Shown here piece after piece: positions 2,981 through 11,124 of a stretch of 64,000 bases of DNA. The stretch's first letter is position 1. Every line of letters begins with the position of its first letter. Below the pieces are notes generated by a model. That model worked only from the letters and a program-made list of their open reading frames with translations, made no database searches and was not told the DNA's origin. Position numbers and translations under genes: made by a program. Source of the stretch: Gammaproteobacteria bacterium 45_16_T64 (GTDB taxonomy: Bacteria > Pseudomonadota > Gammaproteobacteria > Pseudomonadales > Ketobacteraceae); assembly GCA_002162955.1 (NCBI GenBank), contig MABD01000047.1, positions 2,196 through 66,195 on the forward strand. The letters are read 5' to 3'.

Positions 2981-5314
2981 ATGCCGGGCCAGGAAAAGCA
3001 TTACCGTACTTGCAACCTCTGTGAAGCAATGTGCGGCGTTGTCGTCACACACGAAAAAGGCAAAGTGCTTTCCATACAAGGGGACAAACATGACCCTCTT
3101 AGTCGCGGCCATATCTGTCCTAAAGCAGTTGCGTTGCAAGACATTCACGACGACCCTGATCGCCTCCGATATCCAATGCTCAAAACCCCACAAGGCTGGG
3201 AACGCATCAGTTGGGAAAACGCCTTTAACGAAGCCGCTTCTCGGCTACGCACCATTCAAGCAAAACACGGCAAGAATGCCGTCGGCATGTATACCGGCAA
3301 CCCCACGATTCACAACCTAGGCAGTATGATTACCATCGCCCCGCTTATGGCTGCGGTCGGTACCAAAAACCGCTTCAGCGCCACCTCAGTGGATCAGCTG
3401 GCCCCCATGCTCGTTGCAATGAAGATGTTCGGGAGCCACGTCTTGTTACCCGTGCCTGACATTGACCGCACCGACTATTTTTTGTGTATTGGCGGCAACC
3501 CTCTCGCATCCAATGGCAGCTTGATGAGCGTACCTGATGTCAGAAAACGCATCAAAAGCATCCAACAACGCGGGGGGCAATTTGTCACAATTGACCCCCG
3601 CAAGACTGAAACGGCCGACATATCTGACCAACACCATTTCATCACCCCTGGAAGCGATGCATTGTTTCTTATGGGGATCATTCATACGTTATTTAGAAAA
3701 AACCTTATCGACCTAGGTCGCGCAGAGTCCTTCACTCAAGGCGTTAACATGTTACGTAATATGGTAACTGGTTTCACGCCCGAGAAAGTCGCTCCGCACA
3801 CAGGTATTAGTGCTAAAGCAATACGCAACATAGCCACTGATTTGGCCAAAGCCGAGCGTGCGTGTTGTTATGGTCGGATGGGGACATCCACCCAGGAGTT
3901 TGGCGGTCTTAGTAGCTGGTTAATCATGGTGATTAATATCATCACCGGTAACATGGATGAAGAAGGTGGCATGATGTTCACCCACCCCGCCATTGATCTT
4001 GCTGGGTTATCCAATCTATTTGGCCAAACAGGTACTTTTAATAGTCGAAAGAGTCGAGTATCACGCCTACCGGAATTCGGCGGTGAGTATCCTGCAAGCA
4101 CCATGGCAGAAGAAATGCTTACTCAGGGAGAAGGTCAGATAAGAGGGTTGATTACCCATGCCGGAAACCCAGTGCTGTCGACTCCCAACGGCAAGCAATT
4201 AGAAAAAGGCTTAGAAGGCCTCGAATTTATGGTTGCCATTGATTTTTATCTCAATGAAACCACACAACACGCAGATATTATTCTCCCTCCAACGGGTCCT
4301 CTTGAGCATAGTCATTACGACTTAGCACTCAATATGATGACGATCCGTAATACCGCTAAATACTCTCCGCCACTTTTCAATCCTGCGCCAGACACACGGC
4401 ATGATTGGCAGATTCTGCTGGAACTCACCAAGCGGTTTGAAAGCAAATCCCCTATCTCATGGGCAGGAGCAGAAATAAAACACAAGCTGCTAAACCGCCT
4501 TGGCGCTGATGGTGTATTGGACGTGCTATTACGTTCCGGTCCCTATGGCACCAAAGTCCCTCAGTTTGCTGCTCAGCAAAAACAGCTGGTGGATCTACTG
4601 TATAACCGCCTACCAAAAAAGAGTATTGGGCGTCTAGCGCTGGAGCTTAGCCCATACAATAAGACACACAAGCACCGCAGCTCCCAACTCAATTTGCGAA
4701 CCCTGAAAAAGCACCCCCACGGTATTGATCTCGGGCCACTAAAATCTAGCCTGCCACAACGTCTCGCAACACTAAATCACCAAATAAACTTGGTGCCAAA
4801 GTTATTTTTAAAGGACGTATCGCGGCTACAAGAAAGGCTAGCGAGCAAACCACCCAGCAGAACACCCGAAACATTCCTAATGATTGGACGCCGTCATGTA
4901 CGCAGTAATAATTCATGGCTACATAACAGCTATCGCTTAGTTAAAGGCAAAAACCGATGCACGGCGCTGATCCACCCAGGCGATGCTAAGCGACTGAATA
5001 TCCGTAATGGTGACATGATTATTGTCAGTTCAAAAACCGGCGAAATCCGACTTCCTGTTGAAGTGACAGAGAATATCATGCCTTCCGTTATTAGCATTCC
5101 ACATGGCTGGGGGCACTCCAGAAAAGGCAGCCAACTCGCTGTTGCGTCTGAGCATCCAGGCGTTAGCATTAACGATATCACTGATGAAAAGCTCATCGAT
5201 GAGTTAACGGGGGCAGCCGCATTAAGTGGTCAACCCGTCACCGTAAGTCGAATAGAAGTGAAGAATAACATTGTGCGTTTAAATGATGTGCGACTAGCCA
5301 CGATAACGGAATAA
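2981..5314 (+). CDS. Molybdopterin-dependent oxidoreductase with an N-terminal [4Fe-4S] site
   Basis: A 777-residue enzyme of the DMSO reductase/formate dehydrogenase superfamily. C11, C14, C18 and C46 form the CX2CX3CX27C iron-sulfur site, followed by K48 in CPKAV. Segments such as DYFLCIGGNPLASN and ITHAGNPVLS bind the bis-pterin cofactor, and the C-terminal domain from about residue 635 (IHPGDAKRLNIRNGD) is the dinucleotide-binding barrel. By rough alignment to formate dehydrogenase the metal ligand falls near S136 in ATSVDQ, so the ligand may be Ser as in DMSO reductases. No selenocysteine codon is present. With no twin-arginine signal it should be cytoplasmic. No partner subunit is adjacent, and the substrate is unknown. 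Confidence 0.85.
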   Translation: MPGQEKHYRTCNLCEAMCGVVVTHEKGKVLSIQGDKHDPLSRGHICPKAVALQDIHDDPDRLRYPMLKTPQGWERISWENAFNEAASRLRTIQAKHGKNAVGMYTGNPTIHNLGSMITIAPLMAAVGTKNRFSATSVDQLAPMLVAMKMFGSHVLLPVPDIDRTDYFLCIGGNPLASNGSLMSVPDVRKRIKSIQQRGGQFVTIDPRKTETADISDQHHFITPGSDALFLMGIIHTLFRKNLIDLGRAESFTQGVNMLRNMVTGFTPEKVAPHTGISAKAIRNIATDLAKAERACCYGRMGTSTQEFGGLSSWLIMVINIITGNMDEEGGMMFTHPAIDLAGLSNLFGQTGTFNSRKSRVSRLPEFGGEYPASTMAEEMLTQGEGQIRGLITHAGNPVLSTPNGKQLEKGLEGLEFMVAIDFYLNETTQHADIILPPTGPLEHSHYDLALNMMTIRNTAKYSPPLFNPAPDTRHDWQILLELTKRFESKSPISWAGAEIKHKLLNRLGADGVLDVLLRSGPYGTKVPQFAAQQKQLVDLLYNRLPKKSIGRLALELSPYNKTHKHRSSQLNLRTLKKHPHGIDLGPLKSSLPQRLATLNHQINLVPKLFLKDVSRLQERLASKPPSRTPETFLMIGRRHVRSNNSWLHNSYRLVKGKNRCTALIHPGDAKRLNIRNGDMIIVSSKTGEIRLPVEVTENIMPSVISIPHGWGHSRKGSQLAVASEHPGVSINDITDEKLIDELTGAAALSGQPVTVSRIEVKNNIVRLNDVRLATITE

Positions 5315-5320
5315 GAAACG

Positions 5321-6841
5321 TTAGTTATTATGCAGCGAAGATAAGCGTAATCTTCGTTGCAGCTGGCCAGAAATTGCTTCCATCACCATATTTAACGCGG
5401 CAGCAAATAATATCAACAATAGCGCTCGATCATAGCGAATATCTTCAAACGCAGAGTCAATATAGAACCCCAGCGTAGACACACCTAGCAACCCCAAAAT
5501 AGCCGTCTCCCGCATAATTACCTCCCAACGATACAACCAAAAACTCATCAATTGGGCAGATACCCTTGGCAAGACCTCATAACTGTAAAGCAATAACGGG
5601 GCGGGGCAATCAGGCCTAAGGTCAAGGCTATCGACTTGACCACGCAACAAGTAACAAATAACGCCACCGTTATGTAATGCCAACGCAATAATCGCGGGAA
5701 TCATAGAGGGCCCGATCAACAGCATCAACACAAAAGCAATGACGACTTCCGGAAGGGATCGCACCACAAGCAATACAGCAATTCCCCCTCCCCTTCCATA
5801 TCGCCCAAGAAATAGGAATGATTGTAACGGCAAGAAAAACACCACAAAAAGCCCCGTTAACACCACTGACACCATCGTTAATACAATGGTGTCGACTATT
5901 CCTGGGTAGACCTCCTCAGACCAAAGGTGAAGAAACCAAGACAGCAGTTTTCCGTCTGCTATAGACGCCCAAACTTGTCCTCGCATTGGCGCTGGCACTA
6001 TTTCATCTGCAATAAATGCCCCTGCATATTGAAGTGAAACCCCCTGCCCGAACGGAAAAAAAATAACAGCACTTAACACCATCACCCACCAAGTCTTACC
6101 ATTAAACCACCAACGTTTGCCGGCAATAAGCAAGAGCAACACATACAGCAACATCCATGCCTCTGAGTAGTGCCCTTCTTTAATCGCTGACTCTAGATGA
6201 AAACCTATGGTTGGCAGACCAACAAAACCGAGCACAGCACTCGAGCGTAGGGCGCACTCCAACCGATAGCTTACGTAATGACTCATTTGCGACACGACTT
6301 GCATCAACTGAGAAAAAAGAAAGTTGGATACTTTGCCTACTTTTCCACGTAACACCTGCCTGGGTTCAGGGTCCGCTTGCAATAGCATTTCATAGAACAC
6401 CTTCGCGAACACACCAGAATAAGGTATCGCGATAGCCAACAGCCCAGCTAACGGAGATACCCCTATCATTGCTATTAGTAACAACCCCCAAAACAATTCA
6501 TGAATAGCCCGAATAAATGCACACGCCCAACGCACCACAGGCCAACGATAAAATAGTGCACACACAAACCCAACCACTAACGATAACATGACGCCCAACA
6601 CAGCAAATTGCACGGTCAGCATCACCGCACTAAATAGCTCAGAAATATCAGGGTAGGATGGCGTTATTGCTCCGGTGAATATACGTGACAACTCAGCCCA
6701 AGGATAAGTCACTGAGACAACAAGATCAGCAAAAGGCAGACAAATACAACCTACGACCAACATCATCAAGATGACGTTATTGGTAGCTGAAAAAGGCACT
6801 CTACGTAATAAAGAAAAGCGATTCAATACTCGAGAAATCAT
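5321..6841 (-). CDS. Fused PhnE-like ABC transporter permease, probably for selenium oxyanion uptake
   Basis: A 506-residue inner-membrane protein made of two permease halves of the PhnE type. Each half carries its own cytoplasmic coupling loop: SAVLGFVGLPTIGF in the first and ETAILGLLGVSTLGF in the second. Multiple hydrophobic helices surround both. PhnE permeases usually act as two identical subunits of about 260-290 residues, so this is a tandem fusion. Its ATG overlaps the stop of the ATPase gene by one base (TAATG), so translation is coupled. It ends six bases from the stop of the convergent oxidoreductase gene. The selenium role is inferred from the linked selU gene. Confidence 0.8.
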   Translation of the reverse strand: MISRVLNRFSLLRRVPFSATNNVILMMLVVGCICLPFADLVVSVTYPWAELSRIFTGAITPSYPDISELFSAVMLTVQFAVLGVMLSLVVGFVCALFYRWPVVRWACAFIRAIHELFWGLLLIAMIGVSPLAGLLAIAIPYSGVFAKVFYEMLLQADPEPRQVLRGKVGKVSNFLFSQLMQVVSQMSHYVSYRLECALRSSAVLGFVGLPTIGFHLESAIKEGHYSEAWMLLYVLLLLIAGKRWWFNGKTWWVMVLSAVIFFPFGQGVSLQYAGAFIADEIVPAPMRGQVWASIADGKLLSWFLHLWSEEVYPGIVDTIVLTMVSVVLTGLFVVFFLPLQSFLFLGRYGRGGGIAVLLVVRSLPEVVIAFVLMLLIGPSMIPAIIALALHNGGVICYLLRGQVDSLDLRPDCPAPLLLYSYEVLPRVSAQLMSFWLYRWEVIMRETAILGLLGVSTLGFYIDSAFEDIRYDRALLLILFAAALNMVMEAISGQLQRRLRLSSLHNN

Positions 6842-7509
6842 TACAGATTAGTGCGAAAAATAGTAGAGAAGTCCTGCTCGCACAGCTCGGAAGCCAGAGC
6901 ATTAAATGCCACTTTACCCTGCCTGATCCCCACTACACGATCAAAATGCTCAACCGCTAACTGCCGGTCATGGGTTGCCACCACCACCGTTGAGAACTGC
7001 TGCTTTAGGGATTGTATAAGTTGCGCACCATGCTGTTGGTCCACCGAAGACACCGGCTCATCTCCTATAAAGGTAGTCACAAACTCACCTTTACCTTGCA
7101 ATAACGACCGGGCTAACGCAACACGCTGACGCTGCCCACCAGATAACTGGCTGACTTGCTTCTTCAATAACTCGGCAACTCCCACGCAATCAGCCACCGC
7201 ACTTACATCTTCCCATGCCGCTGATTGGGGCCAAATCAAGTTGAGGATGTTCACTCCAATATTATGCTCACTAAGAGCACCCATGTAGATATTATGAAAC
7301 GCAGACAATGTCGGCACTAACCCTAACGACTGTGGACATAGGGCAATAGTTTGCGGCGATAGATCATATAACTGCCGTAACAGCGTACTTTTACCTGCCC
7401 CACTCTCCCCCACAATCGCAACGGATTCCCCCGGCGTCACACTCAGGTTCACCTTATGTAACACAAGGTGATTCCTATAGCCAAATGAGTGATCAACCAG
7501 TTTCAGCAT
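6841..7509 (-). CDS. PhnC-like ABC transporter ATP-binding protein
   Basis: A 222-residue ATPase. Walker A is GESGAGKST, the Q-loop segment is ALCPQSLGLVPTL, the signature is LSGGQRQRVALARSL, Walker B ends in FIGDEPVSSVD, and the switch His is in VVATHDR. The ATG at 7509 overlaps the stop of the binding-protein gene by one base (TGATG); a TTG just upstream is the alternative. It should energise the fused permease encoded downstream. Phosphonate transport is the closest functional analogy by family, but the gene context favours a selenium compound. Confidence 0.85.
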   Translation of the reverse strand: MLKLVDHSFGYRNHLVLHKVNLSVTPGESVAIVGESGAGKSTLLRQLYDLSPQTIALCPQSLGLVPTLSAFHNIYMGALSEHNIGVNILNLIWPQSAAWEDVSAVADCVGVAELLKKQVSQLSGGQRQRVALARSLLQGKGEFVTTFIGDEPVSSVDQQHGAQLIQSLKQQFSTVVVATHDRQLAVEHFDRVVGIRQGKVAFNALASELCEQDFSTIFRTNL

Positions 7510-8378
7510 CAATCAATTAATCCAACACGTTTCGCTACATCAACTATTGGGGCATAGTCTTCGTTAGAGGCCGCCACAAATGATTGCCGTGGAAACGCGG
7601 CGAGTAATGCAGGCGATCGCATTGTCAGTAACGCTTCCCTCACTTTTTCTTTAAAACCAACACCAAATCGCTGCTCCACATCACCCCGTATTGACCATTG
7701 GTAATCTGGATACCCTGGCGTTTGCCAAACCACCGCTACTTTTGAGGTATCAACTTTTCCTGCCGCGACAGCCTGGTCCCACACTTTAAAATTCACCGCG
7801 CCAGTATTAAACGCACCAGACTCTACCAAAGCAATGGTGCGAGAATGGTCACCACTATAACCTACCCGTGTAAAGACCTTGTTAGGCACAACACCAAATT
7901 GCTCACGTAAATAAAACTCTGGCATTAGCCGGCCAGAAGTAGAGCCCTTAGAGCCAAAAGTAAACGTAAACCCCTCTAAGGCATCTAAATTTTTAACACT
8001 GCCCTTTAACTGGGTTTGTTCGACATTTGCAATAAAATAAGTTTTAAAGAATTGATCTTCATATCCTTGAGCAATCGCTTCGGAACCTTTCACTCGCATC
8101 CGAGCTCGCACTCCTGACAAACCACCAAACCATGCCAATTGAACTTGATCATGGGAAAATGCCGTCACTGCAGCACCATAAGATTTCACCGGTAAATAGC
8201 GAACCTTAACTCCCAACTCCTGCTCTAAGTATGCAGCGACTTTTGAAAACCGCTGCTGCAACTGGCTCTCATCCTGATCGGGGATTGCAGTGAATACCAA
8301 CTCACGCTGATCAGCGAACCCCATGCTCGGTAAGAAGAGCACCGTAAATAAAATTAACGCTCGGCTTAACAACATCAT
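7509..8378 (-). CDS. PhnD-like periplasmic binding protein, putative selenate/selenium transporter component
   Basis: A 289-residue solute-binding protein with a signal peptide ending near SMGFA. The mature part reads AIPDQDESQLQQRFSKVAAY, then VQLAWFGGLSGVRARM, the usual PhnD-family layout. A subfamily with this layout is annotated as a putative selenate binding protein because it recurs beside selenium genes (established association; ligand unproven). I place the start at ATG 8378, which overlaps the selU stop as ATGA and has GGGG seven bases upstream. An upstream GTG at 8396 would add six residues. It would deliver substrate to the ATPase and fused permease encoded next. Confidence 0.8.
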   Translation of the reverse strand: MMLLSRALILFTVLFLPSMGFADQRELVFTAIPDQDESQLQQRFSKVAAYLEQELGVKVRYLPVKSYGAAVTAFSHDQVQLAWFGGLSGVRARMRVKGSEAIAQGYEDQFFKTYFIANVEQTQLKGSVKNLDALEGFTFTFGSKGSTSGRLMPEFYLREQFGVVPNKVFTRVGYSGDHSRTIALVESGAFNTGAVNFKVWDQAVAAGKVDTSKVAVVWQTPGYPDYQWSIRGDVEQRFGVGFKEKVREALLTMRSPALLAAFPRQSFVAASNEDYAPIVDVAKRVGLID

Positions 8379-9475
8379 TTTCTTTCCCCTACCCACTCAA
8401 GAATCATTTGGTGAGTACCTTTAAATAGAATGGTTCGTGTTTTTTGTTGATCTTGATAGGTATACATTGGGTCATAGTATTGCTGCAATAATTCAGCCAC
8501 TAACTCTCGATAAGCACTCAATGCCCCCGTTGCTTTATGCGCCTTAAGCGCACCTTCCAAAACCTCAGTTAAGCGGGTATATCGAACACCCCCAAGGCGC
8601 TTCCGTATGCGATACAAACTATCGTTGAGGTATTCAGCCAACAGTATATTAGCCTTTTCTTCATCGCCCTCATTGAGCTGCAGGTAACGTTGAAACATAT
8701 CAACCACATAGTCTTGTACACCCCGGTCGATTCTATCTTCCAGGGTGGTTTCCAATACCACGGCAGGCGCTTCCGACATTCGTTTTTTTAGTGGTTCAGA
8801 AAGAGCACACCGCCCGATCAATCGCCCCTCGTCCTCAAGGTAAACTGAACTAACAGCCTGACCTGCCATTTTTAACATAGCGATAGACAAACTGTTTTCG
8901 AAGTCAATTTGGCTAGGCTGCCCACCAGGTAACTTACCAAAGCTAGAGCCTCGATGATTGGCAAGCCCCTCTAAGTCGACCGATCCGGGCAAGTCGAGAA
9001 TCAGCTCTGTTTTACCAACACCCGTTGGCCCCGCCACAATAACAAAGGGTAATTTGGCCGAGTTGAGCTCCAATTCATCGATTAAAAATCGTCGCATCGC
9101 TTTGTAACCACCCAATACCAAGGGATAAGCCATGCCCGCTTCTTTCATTGCTTGCTGGGTTGACCTTGAACGCAGTCCACCTCGAAAACAATACAAATAG
9201 CCCGCCGGGTGCTTTTGGGCAAATTCACACCAACGTTGAATCCGCGCGTCTTTTGTCTCCCCAGATAACAATGAATGCCCCAGTAAAATGGCCTCATCCT
9301 GGCCTTTTTCCTTGTAGCAGGTGCCCACTAGCTCGCGCTCATGATCGTTAAGCACCGGGAGGTTAATCGCCTCAGGGAAGGCTCCTTTACTAAATTCAAT
9401 AGGTGCACGAACATCCATCATCGGAATATCGGACAGGAACAACTGGCGGTAATCCCGCGTATCGCCTCGATCCAT
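8375..9475 (-). CDS. selU: tRNA 2-selenouridine synthase
   Basis: A 366-residue SelU/MnmH (YbbB) enzyme. It replaces sulfur with selenium on 2-thiouridine at the wobble position of certain tRNAs, through a geranylated intermediate, using selenophosphate. An N-terminal rhodanese domain contains the active Cys C96 in YLYCFRGGLRSRS. A P-loop GPTGVGKT at 149-156 follows, then a helical C-terminal region. Length matches the family (E. coli 364). It is the first gene of a minus-strand block with the ABC transporter, joined by a 4-base overlap. Selenophosphate synthetase (selD) is not in the window and must be elsewhere if the enzyme uses selenium. Confidence 0.92.
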   Translation of the reverse strand: MDRGDTRDYRQLFLSDIPMMDVRAPIEFSKGAFPEAINLPVLNDHERELVGTCYKEKGQDEAILLGHSLLSGETKDARIQRWCEFAQKHPAGYLYCFRGGLRSRSTQQAMKEAGMAYPLVLGGYKAMRRFLIDELELNSAKLPFVIVAGPTGVGKTELILDLPGSVDLEGLANHRGSSFGKLPGGQPSQIDFENSLSIAMLKMAGQAVSSVYLEDEGRLIGRCALSEPLKKRMSEAPAVVLETTLEDRIDRGVQDYVVDMFQRYLQLNEGDEEKANILLAEYLNDSLYRIRKRLGGVRYTRLTEVLEGALKAHKATGALSAYRELVAELLQQYYDPMYTYQDQQKTRTILFKGTHQMILEWVGERK

Positions 9476-9555: not shown

Positions 9556-11124
9556 TCAATTAAACAATAACTGGTCAGCACCATCGGAATAGTCAATAGG
9601 AAATGTGAGGGTAAATTCACTGCCACTCCCTTTTGCGCTAGTAACATCTAGTGTCCCATCAAGCTGCTTCATCAACTGATACACCACAGACAACCCCAAG
9701 CCAGCCCCTGCCCCTTGTTGTACAGCCTGCTCATCAAGGTCGATAAAGGGCTTTAAGAAGTCTTGTGCTTCATCCATGTCAAAGCCTTCACCGGTGTCCT
9801 TCACCCTGATCAACAGACACTCACCTACGTCTTTTTGGGTTTTTTTGATATCCAATACAACGCTACCTTCGACCGTATATTTAACCGCATTAGACAATAA
9901 GCTGCGTAATATTTGCTTTAAATGTTTCGGGTCGATAAACACCTTCTCATCTAGCCCCTCAAACGTATGGATAAATTCAATCGCCTTGCTATTTGCCCAA
10001 CGATCATAAAACTCCAGGGTATCCGACAACAAATCTGGCAAAGAGAAGTTCTTTCTGACCACATTGATATTTTCGATATCGCTTAACGCCAGAAGGTCTT
10101 CAATCAAGTCGGTCAACCTATTTGCACTCTTATCCATGAGGTCAATGACTTGGCTTTCCTTGCTATTGGATTTACCCCCTAGCTTTCGACGCAACAAAGT
10201 CACGCCACTCATAATAGAACCCATTGGGGTTCTGAGCTCATGGGACATATTCTTCAAAAACCACGCCTTGTTTCTTTCAGCAATGGTGGCTATTTTATCA
10301 GAATGAATCGAATGGGCTCGCATCCCCGCCCCCTCAATCAACGGAAACAACGAATCTTTTAACTGTCCGTGCTCCTCGGTATCGACTGGTGGCATATTGG
10401 TAACGTACACCCAAATATTTTCGAAAAACACCATAGTGTTATCATCATCCTGGAGATAACGCACACCCTCACGACTCCCTGTGGTCAATAAATTCGTCAC
10501 CAACACTTCACTAGAAGGGTCACCAAAATAATAAGACTGGCCTCCAATCCAAATAAGACCGTTGCAATCAGCACCCAGTAAGCGAAACGATTCAATCAGT
10601 AACTCACCGAGTTCGGAATACCCTTGAATCTTGTAACTATTTTCTTGGAACCGAACAACTTCCCCTAACTGGCTACTGGCTGACATACTCAACATTGCGA
10701 CATTACGAGCGTTAGCCAATTGCTCTTTTTTCGCTTGAACATCGGCGAGCATGTGATAAATCTGTTTAATCTGATACGCCAATAAATCCACTGGCTCATC
10801 ACTTCTAAAAATACTTATCACACCCAGTTCAGTAAATTCACTGACGGTTTTAACCGATTTATCATCGCTCAATATCAATAATGGCGGAAATTGAATCGAT
10901 TCCTCATTTTCGTGATAGAGCCTCACTAGCCGAGTTAAATTAATAAAACTGTTTTTCTTAATATCTAAAATAGCCAGCCCAAACTGATTATCTTCGAACA
11001 ACTGCTTTGATATATTTTGATGTTGATGAACGGAAACAGCAGCAACCTCTTGCAGCACAGGTGCCAACGTATCCGAGAGTGCCTCGTCCTGTAATATAAG
11101 TACAATATTATTGGAATAACTCAT
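9556..11124 (-). CDS. Sensor histidine kinase with an N-terminal receiver-like domain
   Basis: A 522-residue cytoplasmic kinase with no transmembrane segment. Residues 1-115 look like a response-regulator receiver: VLILQDEAL at the start, D54 in LAILDIKK at the phosphoacceptor place, then LLILSDDKS, but the usual acidic pair and KP motif are weak. A middle region (about 140-280) has no clear family match. The kinase core has the H-box NMSHELRTPMGSI with H295, an N-box SNAVKYT, and G-boxes DTGEGFD and GAGLGLS. A receiver before the kinase suggests regulation by an upstream phosphorelay or by protein binding. No response regulator gene is adjacent. Confidence 0.85.
   Translation of the reverse strand: MSYSNNIVLILQDEALSDTLAPVLQEVAAVSVHQHQNISKQLFEDNQFGLAILDIKKNSFINLTRLVRLYHENEESIQFPPLLILSDDKSVKTVSEFTELGVISIFRSDEPVDLLAYQIKQIYHMLADVQAKKEQLANARNVAMLSMSASSQLGEVVRFQENSYKIQGYSELGELLIESFRLLGADCNGLIWIGGQSYYFGDPSSEVLVTNLLTTGSREGVRYLQDDDNTMVFFENIWVYVTNMPPVDTEEHGQLKDSLFPLIEGAGMRAHSIHSDKIATIAERNKAWFLKNMSHELRTPMGSIMSGVTLLRRKLGGKSNSKESQVIDLMDKSANRLTDLIEDLLALSDIENINVVRKNFSLPDLLSDTLEFYDRWANSKAIEFIHTFEGLDEKVFIDPKHLKQILRSLLSNAVKYTVEGSVVLDIKKTQKDVGECLLIRVKDTGEGFDMDEAQDFLKPFIDLDEQAVQQGAGAGLGLSVVYQLMKQLDGTLDVTSAKGSGSEFTLTFPIDYSDGADQLLFN

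Follow-up and report, generated by a model that had tools for sequence, protein, structure and literature searches.

Contiguity of selD and selU has been known since 2005 from selD-ybbB (selD-selU) operons (PMC1273633), and the sulfate/thiosulfate permease of Escherichia coli, an ATP-binding cassette (ABC) importer, carries the selenium oxyanions selenite and selenate (PMC3781023). That permease is non-specific, however, and according to reviews a dedicated selenium transporter has not yet been identified in bacteria. In this study we analyzed a 64,000-nucleotide stretch of Gammaproteobacteria bacterium 45_16_T64 (hereafter the window; positions 2196-66195 of contig C46 of genome G000, which is 6.49 Mb in size and 97% complete). 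In the window, a selU gene of the same family as that of the selD-ybbB operons is followed by genes for the binding protein, ATPase and permease of an ABC importer. Compared with the known operons, selD is unlinked in G000 and the operon appears to be extended by a dedicated transporter. We consider it likely (probability of roughly 0.78) that the four genes constitute one operon for the uptake and use of inorganic selenium.

The selU-transporter block and its protein families

All four genes are intact frames on the minus strand. The original prediction, which had placed them in one block with overlaps of 4, 1 and 1 bases, was accurate in both coordinates and frames:

8375..9475, minus strand: selU/mnmH, tRNA 2-selenouridine(34) synthase, 366 amino acids; NF008751 and TIGR03167 over their cut-offs
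7509..8378, minus strand: periplasmic substrate-binding protein of the TIGR04553 family, 289 amino acids; 365.4 bits versus a cut-off of 250; AlphaFold2 (AF2) model
6841..7509, minus strand: ABC transporter ATPase, PhnC-like, 222 amino acids, with its ATG at 7509; PF00005, 71.7 bits versus 25
5321..6841, minus strand: ABC transporter permease, tandem-fused and PhnE-like, 506 amino acids; two TIGR01097 stretches
8375..8378, minus strand: overlap of the selU stop and the binding-protein start, 4 bases (ATGA)
7509..7509, minus strand: overlap of the binding-protein stop and the ATPase start, 1 base (TGATG)
6841..6841, minus strand: overlap of the ATPase stop and the permease start, 1 base (TAATG)

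Reading of the sequence revealed a purine-rich AGGGG directly ahead of the ATG of the binding-protein gene and no obvious purine-rich stretch ahead of the starts of the ATPase and permease genes, as would fit translational coupling at the latter two. A promoter scan returned one site, with 0.6 expected.

SelU exceeded both equivalog cut-offs (NF008751, 488.5 bits versus 361; TIGR03167, 336.9 versus 219.75). The match of the binding protein to TIGR04553 covered nearly the entire profile (residues 27-289 on profile positions 2-266), its partner ATPase and permease are present in the same operon, and SelD is present in the host genome. NCBIfam gives TIGR04553 (ABC_peri_selen) the name 'putative selenate ABC transporter', and the known pattern that had been invoked to tie similar binding proteins to selenium genes does exist in this form. 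The selenium link of the family is already hypothesised by its name, in which the ligand is a guess; in the present lineage, a selenium-associated ABC importer bearing this hypothetical family name is joined in an operon with selU. The binding protein of the E. coli sulfate/thiosulfate permease belongs to a different family.

The block is similar to the PhnCDE importer of carbon-phosphorus (C-P) lyase operons in its three-component architecture and fold. In contrast to PhnCDE, its proteins fall under the equivalog cut-offs for PhnD (TIGR03431, 139 bits versus 261) and PhnC (TIGR02315, 138 versus 266, with the frame searched from 7503) and under that for PhnE (TIGR01097, 188 versus 217). Two PhnE-like stretches were found within the 506 residues of the permease, which is therefore a tandem fusion, i.e. 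a pair of half-permeases joined together. The family of the block also caps with Tyr, and not with the D/T/E cap for 2-aminoethylphosphonate (PMC5700983; PMC10284923). A search of the whole of G000 for PhnJ (PF06007) found none at E<=1e-10; no search was aimed at further genes of phosphonate or phosphite use, and the earlier claim that phosphonate genes are absent holds for PhnJ.

Association with SelD and other selenium genes

The SelD that a selenium function would call for is encoded in G000 on contig C53 (436.6 bits), apart from the contig of the window. Its Cys is located at the usual catalytic place, and none of the long frames adjoining this selD was selenium-gene-like by eye. SelB did not pass its cut-off in this 97%-complete genome (best 142 bits versus 242.25), and neither did tRNA-Sec, the product of selC (best 43.6 versus 47; 83 of 361 candidates scored). 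At the family cut-offs, selenocysteine is thus not made by the known route in G000, in line with the proposal that selenium may serve mainly tRNA modification here. In the same survey, which covered 38 genomes, eight passed the tRNA-Sec cut-off; SelB was over its cut-off in four, and these scored 66-78 bits for tRNA-Sec. The matches in the other four (47-50 bits) are probably other tRNAs.

In order to compare the distribution of the binding protein with that of SelD, two samples were used: 38 relatives and an even class-wide sample of 369 genomes, the top six candidates per genome being scored in the latter. The binding protein was over its cut-off in 18 relatives, all of which also had SelD (26/38 overall) and SelU (27/38 overall) over cut-off; SelB occurred only in G034 and G035 among them. 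Class-wide there were 15 carriers, spanning 13 families, and SelD was present in every one, compared with 87/369 overall. The association with SelD gave Fisher p values of 4.7e-5 (relatives) and 1.4e-10 (class), with shared ancestry ignored. As a control, we examined the seven class genomes in which a related protein reached E<=1e-60 and yet fell short of the cut-off. Two of these genomes are incomplete (G070, 86%; G214, 72%), and SelD was found in none of the seven. These seven proteins and one from G002, which holds this sub-cut-off copy (243 bits) beside its over-cut-off copy, form a separate clade (support 100/99 in a tree of 66 rows). Several genes of the clade (L163-L169; L139 of G002) have kinase-sized neighbours, and both of those scanned (L164 and L168) are sensor histidine kinases, which suggests that its members are probably oxyanion sensors rather than importers. 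The co-occurrence with SelD leaves selenium well supported as the cargo.

The gene neighbourhoods were analyzed in the best 80 of 163 relatives of the binding protein. The binding protein-ATPase-permease triple was present in 76 of these loci (the exceptions being L053, L074, L076 and L109, of which L074 ends at a contig end). A selU gene was located no more than 400 bases upstream of the binding protein in 38 loci; 41 loci contained selD (29 of them as a standalone upstream gene), at least one of the two being present in 44; the order selD-selU-binding protein-ATPase-permease was recurrent. Thirty-six loci had neither gene in the fetched stretch. For 35 of them (34 genomes; L082 was left out) the search was extended genome-wide, and SelD was found in 32/34.

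Among the 18 carrier relatives, 14 have selU adjoining the binding-protein gene (same strand, matched domains under 500 bases apart), in agreement with the original prediction, and in the remaining four (G004, G015, G033 and G034) the two genes are on different contigs. In the class-wide sample nine genomes have both genes, and these adjoin each other in only one, which is G000 itself. The selU linkage is therefore bound to the lineage. By contrast with this one case in nine, SelD accompanied the transporter in 15/15 carriers and lay within 15 kb of the binding protein in seven of the 15. Furthermore, a SenB-like gene was present in the same locus in six of the 14 class loci examined (L173 and L183-L187). 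SenB was over its cut-off in 4/4 scanned loci (L184-L187) and SenA in 2/2 (L184 and L185); the SenB assignments of L173 and L183 rest on tblastn, that of L173 being about 7 kb off and 40% identical. Among the 80 loci, SenB was present in five and SenA in four.

One importer family thus accompanies tRNA selenation, selenoneine synthesis and SelD, and SelD is the common factor. Since in other genomes the transporter is found near selD or selenoneine genes, the importer probably serves selenium use generally and not tRNA alone. The designation 'uptake-to-tRNA module' given to the block in the original prediction is well supported as regards selenium as cargo and too narrow as regards tRNA. Channelling of selenium to tRNA only was rejected as a general role, as six of the 15 class carriers have no SelU match and sen genes adjoin the transporter in several. 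In comparison with the known sen genes (SenA and SenB with SelD), other genomes have transporters of this family beside senA, senB and fused selD, whereas no SenA or SenB match was found in the window or in two further stretches of G000, the rest of that genome not having been searched.

The same evidence bears on the proposal that the block imports a sulfur oxyanion (sulfite or thiosulfate) for the tRNA thiolation that precedes selenation. SelU does act on 2-thiouridine tRNA (PMC5322559), but such an importer would leave the linkage to SelD and the sen genes unexplained where SelU is missing (the same six class carriers and the sen loci), and we regard this proposal as barely credible.

The selU/binding-protein overlap was found in only two of 37 measurable loci, with a median gap of 25 bases, and the ATPase/permease overlap in 45 of 71; these counts are approximate, the start codons having been chosen by script. 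Recurrence of the block was thus confirmed for the triple and for the proximity of selU, but not for the overlap of selU with the binding-protein gene. Strict translational coupling of selU and the transporter was rejected as a conserved trait, and is local. In all 73 loci with the three transporter genes, the binding protein was more conserved than the ATPase and permease (median identity to relatives, over all usable loci, of 65%, 41% and 44%, respectively), a ranking somewhat biased because the loci were picked by the binding protein.

Several other features of the neighbourhoods were recorded. The block is bordered upstream of selU by a histidine kinase gene (window 9556-11124) and downstream by a convergent molybdopterin oxidoreductase gene (2981-5314), and the same flanks are present in L034 and L036 (76% and 85% identity). 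Genome G001, of the same genus, has three selU matches (C41, C184 and C188), the one on C188 being followed by a short binding-protein match of 69 profile positions; this may reflect module duplication, or an effect of assembly or contamination (contamination 4%). The binding protein of relative G023 (L136:1489-2415) is divergent and lies right after selU, with Asn in place of the capping Tyr. No ATPase or permease frame adjoining it was seen within 3.8 kb, and the protein possibly has an altered ligand or is a relic.

In five class carriers (G163, G191, G283, G302 and G369) there was no match to SelU (E<=1e-40, six candidates scored) or to SelB (E<=1e-70), and four of them, G283 being the exception, hold SenB in the same locus. 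In these four (L184, L185, L183 and L186 for G163, G191, G302 and G369, respectively) senA/senB are located near SelD and the transporter. Selenoneine may explain some of the genomes earlier reported as 'orphan SelD'. In PMC5029168 an ABC ATPase (pfam00005), not further specified, was noted in the vicinity of orphan selD; it is possibly that of the present transporter. Beside senB and senA, two loci (L055:13028-14161 and L082:7148-8296) match the oxidoreductase part of fused SelD with the SelD part missing; the SelD match elsewhere in the L055 genome is partial, at a contig end, and contains an in-frame TGA.

Binding pocket and predicted cargo

The AF2 model of the binding protein (pLDDT 92.2) had 7S6G as its best PDB match. 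The closest solved structures are those of PhnD1 from marine Synechococcus (7S6G, with phosphate) and Prochlorococcus (5LQ8, with methylphosphonate, and 5LQ5, with phosphite), with 39-41% identity. PhnD1 chain segments scored 337 and 301 bits on TIGR04553 (cut-off 250), and in the 66-row tree PhnD1 is sister to the window-type clade (support 99/94). A clade from three SelD-bearing genomes (G034, G144 and G260) branches just outside both (94/82, under the starred level). If this outer branch holds, PhnD1 would be bracketed by selenium-linked members.

The published pocket of PhnD1 consists of Y44, S124-T125-S126, H156, D203 and Y204 with D11 and N174 (PMC10284923). The equivalents in the window protein are Y67, S146-T147-S148, H178, D225, Y226, D34 and N196, and these residues are invariant in all 46 rows of alignment A1. 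In the wider tree some rows vary: L118 and L173 have Asn for Asp225, and some pocket positions are changed in L136 and L172. The positions separating the two groups are I, E, S/N, S, D and A in PhnD1 and mostly E107, K144, G145, D177, S179 and R180 in the window type.

Selenite is pyramidal and near pH 8 is partly present as HSeO3-, while selenate is fully deprotonated and does not become protonated at neutral pH. The authors describing the Asp-ligand contact in PhnD1 interpreted it to mean that a singly protonated anion is bound (PMC5700983). As the pocket Asp (D225) is so read, selenite is favoured over selenate. Taken with the genomic association, the cargo is very likely selenium, and from the pocket we predict that it is somewhat more probably selenite than selenate or an organic form.

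Under this prediction, the binding protein would capture a small oxyanion of selenium, for which hydrogen selenite (HSeO3-) is the best candidate, in the periplasm, and the ATPase and the tandem-fused permease would import it. Inside the cell the oxyanion would be reduced to selenide (an inferred step), from which SelD, encoded elsewhere in the genome, would make selenophosphate. SelU would then use selenophosphate to exchange the sulfur of the tRNA wobble uridine for selenium.

Another selenium form, either selenate or a small organic compound such as methylseleninate, is an unlikely cargo. It would agree with the family name, and the PhnD1 pocket accepts ligands that carry a methyl group (methylphosphonate) or a fourth oxygen (phosphate) (PMC10284923). 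Against selenate stands the oxyanion-contacting Asp, which is retained in all but a few members (those with Asn being L118 and L173).

Several points weigh against selenite import by the block. In G000 itself selD is unlinked to the block, part of the association with SelD reflects common descent, and the class-wide counts rest on the six candidates scored per genome. The cut-off separates imperfectly, since the G023 protein is under it (201 bits) and yet its genome has SelD and an adjoining selU. SelD is absent from G409 and G412, the two exceptions among the 34 searched genomes; the G409 assembly is probably incomplete, as SelB is present there, and G412 has neither SelD nor SelB. The NCBI family name says selenate, not selenite, and no published selenium binding or uptake data were located for the TIGR04553 family. 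A PhnD1 residue contacting buried water, S123, corresponds to Gly145 in the window protein. Phosphite is held in PhnD1 by a P-H...pi contact (PMC5700983), which selenite, offering a lone pair and no hydrogen, cannot make. PhnD1 binds phosphite at 0.05-4.3 uM and phosphate at 7-182 uM (PMC10284923), and the window protein passes the broader TIGR01098 family of phosphate/phosphite/phosphonate binding proteins (159.5 bits versus 112).

The last of these points are also those that would suit an importer of phosphite, phosphate or small phosphonates like PhnD1, in which case the company of selenium genes would be incidental or would serve phosphorus supply. In the crystal structures of relatives this pocket is occupied by phosphite, phosphate or methylphosphonate, and the Kd for phosphite is as low as 0.05 uM in Prochlorococcus (PMC10284923). 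Such an importer does not account for the presence of SelD in 15/15 class carriers and 18/18 relatives, or for the repeated occurrence of the transporter in operons that include selU, selD or sen genes. Moreover, PhnJ, absent from G000, was found in only two of the 38 relatives (G012 and G015), both of them among the 18 carriers. In each, another PhnD-like gene is located about 4 kb from phnJ, and the C-P lyase importer of these two genomes therefore probably uses a protein other than the selenium-associated one. Neither of the two Synechococcus strains tested grew with phosphite or methylphosphonate (PMC10284923). We consider a phosphorus importer improbable, and retain inorganic selenium as the probable cargo of the block.

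Literature on the family was sparse. No paper testing the selenium link of TIGR04553 was located, and the family identifier itself gave no literature match. A 'putative selenate ABC' entry appears in a resistance-gene table in PMC13077682, in which selenite export is suggested, and the available text of PMC10891094 mentions no transporter.

Picocyanobacterial PhnD1 and the wider family

PhnD1C1E1 of the marine picocyanobacteria, the most abundant phototrophs of the ocean, is the nearest described system (7S6G, 5LQ5 and 5LQ8). It has the same oxyanion contacts as the window protein, both are members of TIGR04553, and they form sister clades. PhnD1 has been described as phosphite-preferring and probably phosphate-importing, and its gene lies near tesA (PMC10284923). 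The window-type loci differ in this last respect, a motif search of the frames around the 80 binding-protein genes having revealed no TesA-like neighbour.

PhnD1 is present in all 97 picocyanobacterial genomes of Cyanorak, its transporter genes are unresponsive to phosphorus starvation, and four studied strains are without known genes to use phosphite or methylphosphonate (PMC10284923). In that paper the purpose of PhnD1 is termed paradoxical, and the proposal is that it imports phosphate constitutively (PMC10284923). Its main text mentions neither selenium nor selenite or selenate, and our literature search found no paper combining 'PhnD1' and 'selenium'. The paradox, to which the modest affinity for phosphate and the lack of genes for using phosphite or phosphonate in most strains also contribute, would vanish if the ligand were selenite, which is close to phosphite in shape, feeding fused SelD and SelU. 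A SelD fused to an oxidoreductase is reported in Prochlorococcus and Synechococcus, and ybbB/selU in cyanobacteria (PMC1273633). The listing of three Prochlorococcus genomes as orphan-SelD (PMC5029168) runs against SelU being universal in Prochlorococcus. A selenium role for PhnD1 would fit these data; it remains a prediction.

As the TIGR04553 cut-off admits the crystallised PhnD1 proteins, public annotation may label their genes as selenate transporters where papers speak of phosphate or phosphite transporters. A search of viral contigs for PhnD1 relatives gave seven pattern matches, none of which was a relative.

More tentatively, and at slightly less than even odds, the whole clade, including PhnD1C1E1, could be the long-missing dedicated selenite importer of bacteria, combined with modules for tRNA selenation, selenoneine and selenocysteine. 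The refinements added here to the hypothesis implicit in the family name were not found in print in our literature search: the tie to SelD rather than to selU, the selenoneine link, selenite as the ligand, and the inclusion of PhnD1.

The block provides a binding protein that is defined and expressible, has relatives of known structure and comes with a sharp prediction of its ligand. If this prediction is true, the block would supply the bacterial selenium transporter and offer a solution to the published paradox of a transporter reported in all 97 picocyanobacteria examined, and the phosphite binding measured in the clade would be mimicry.

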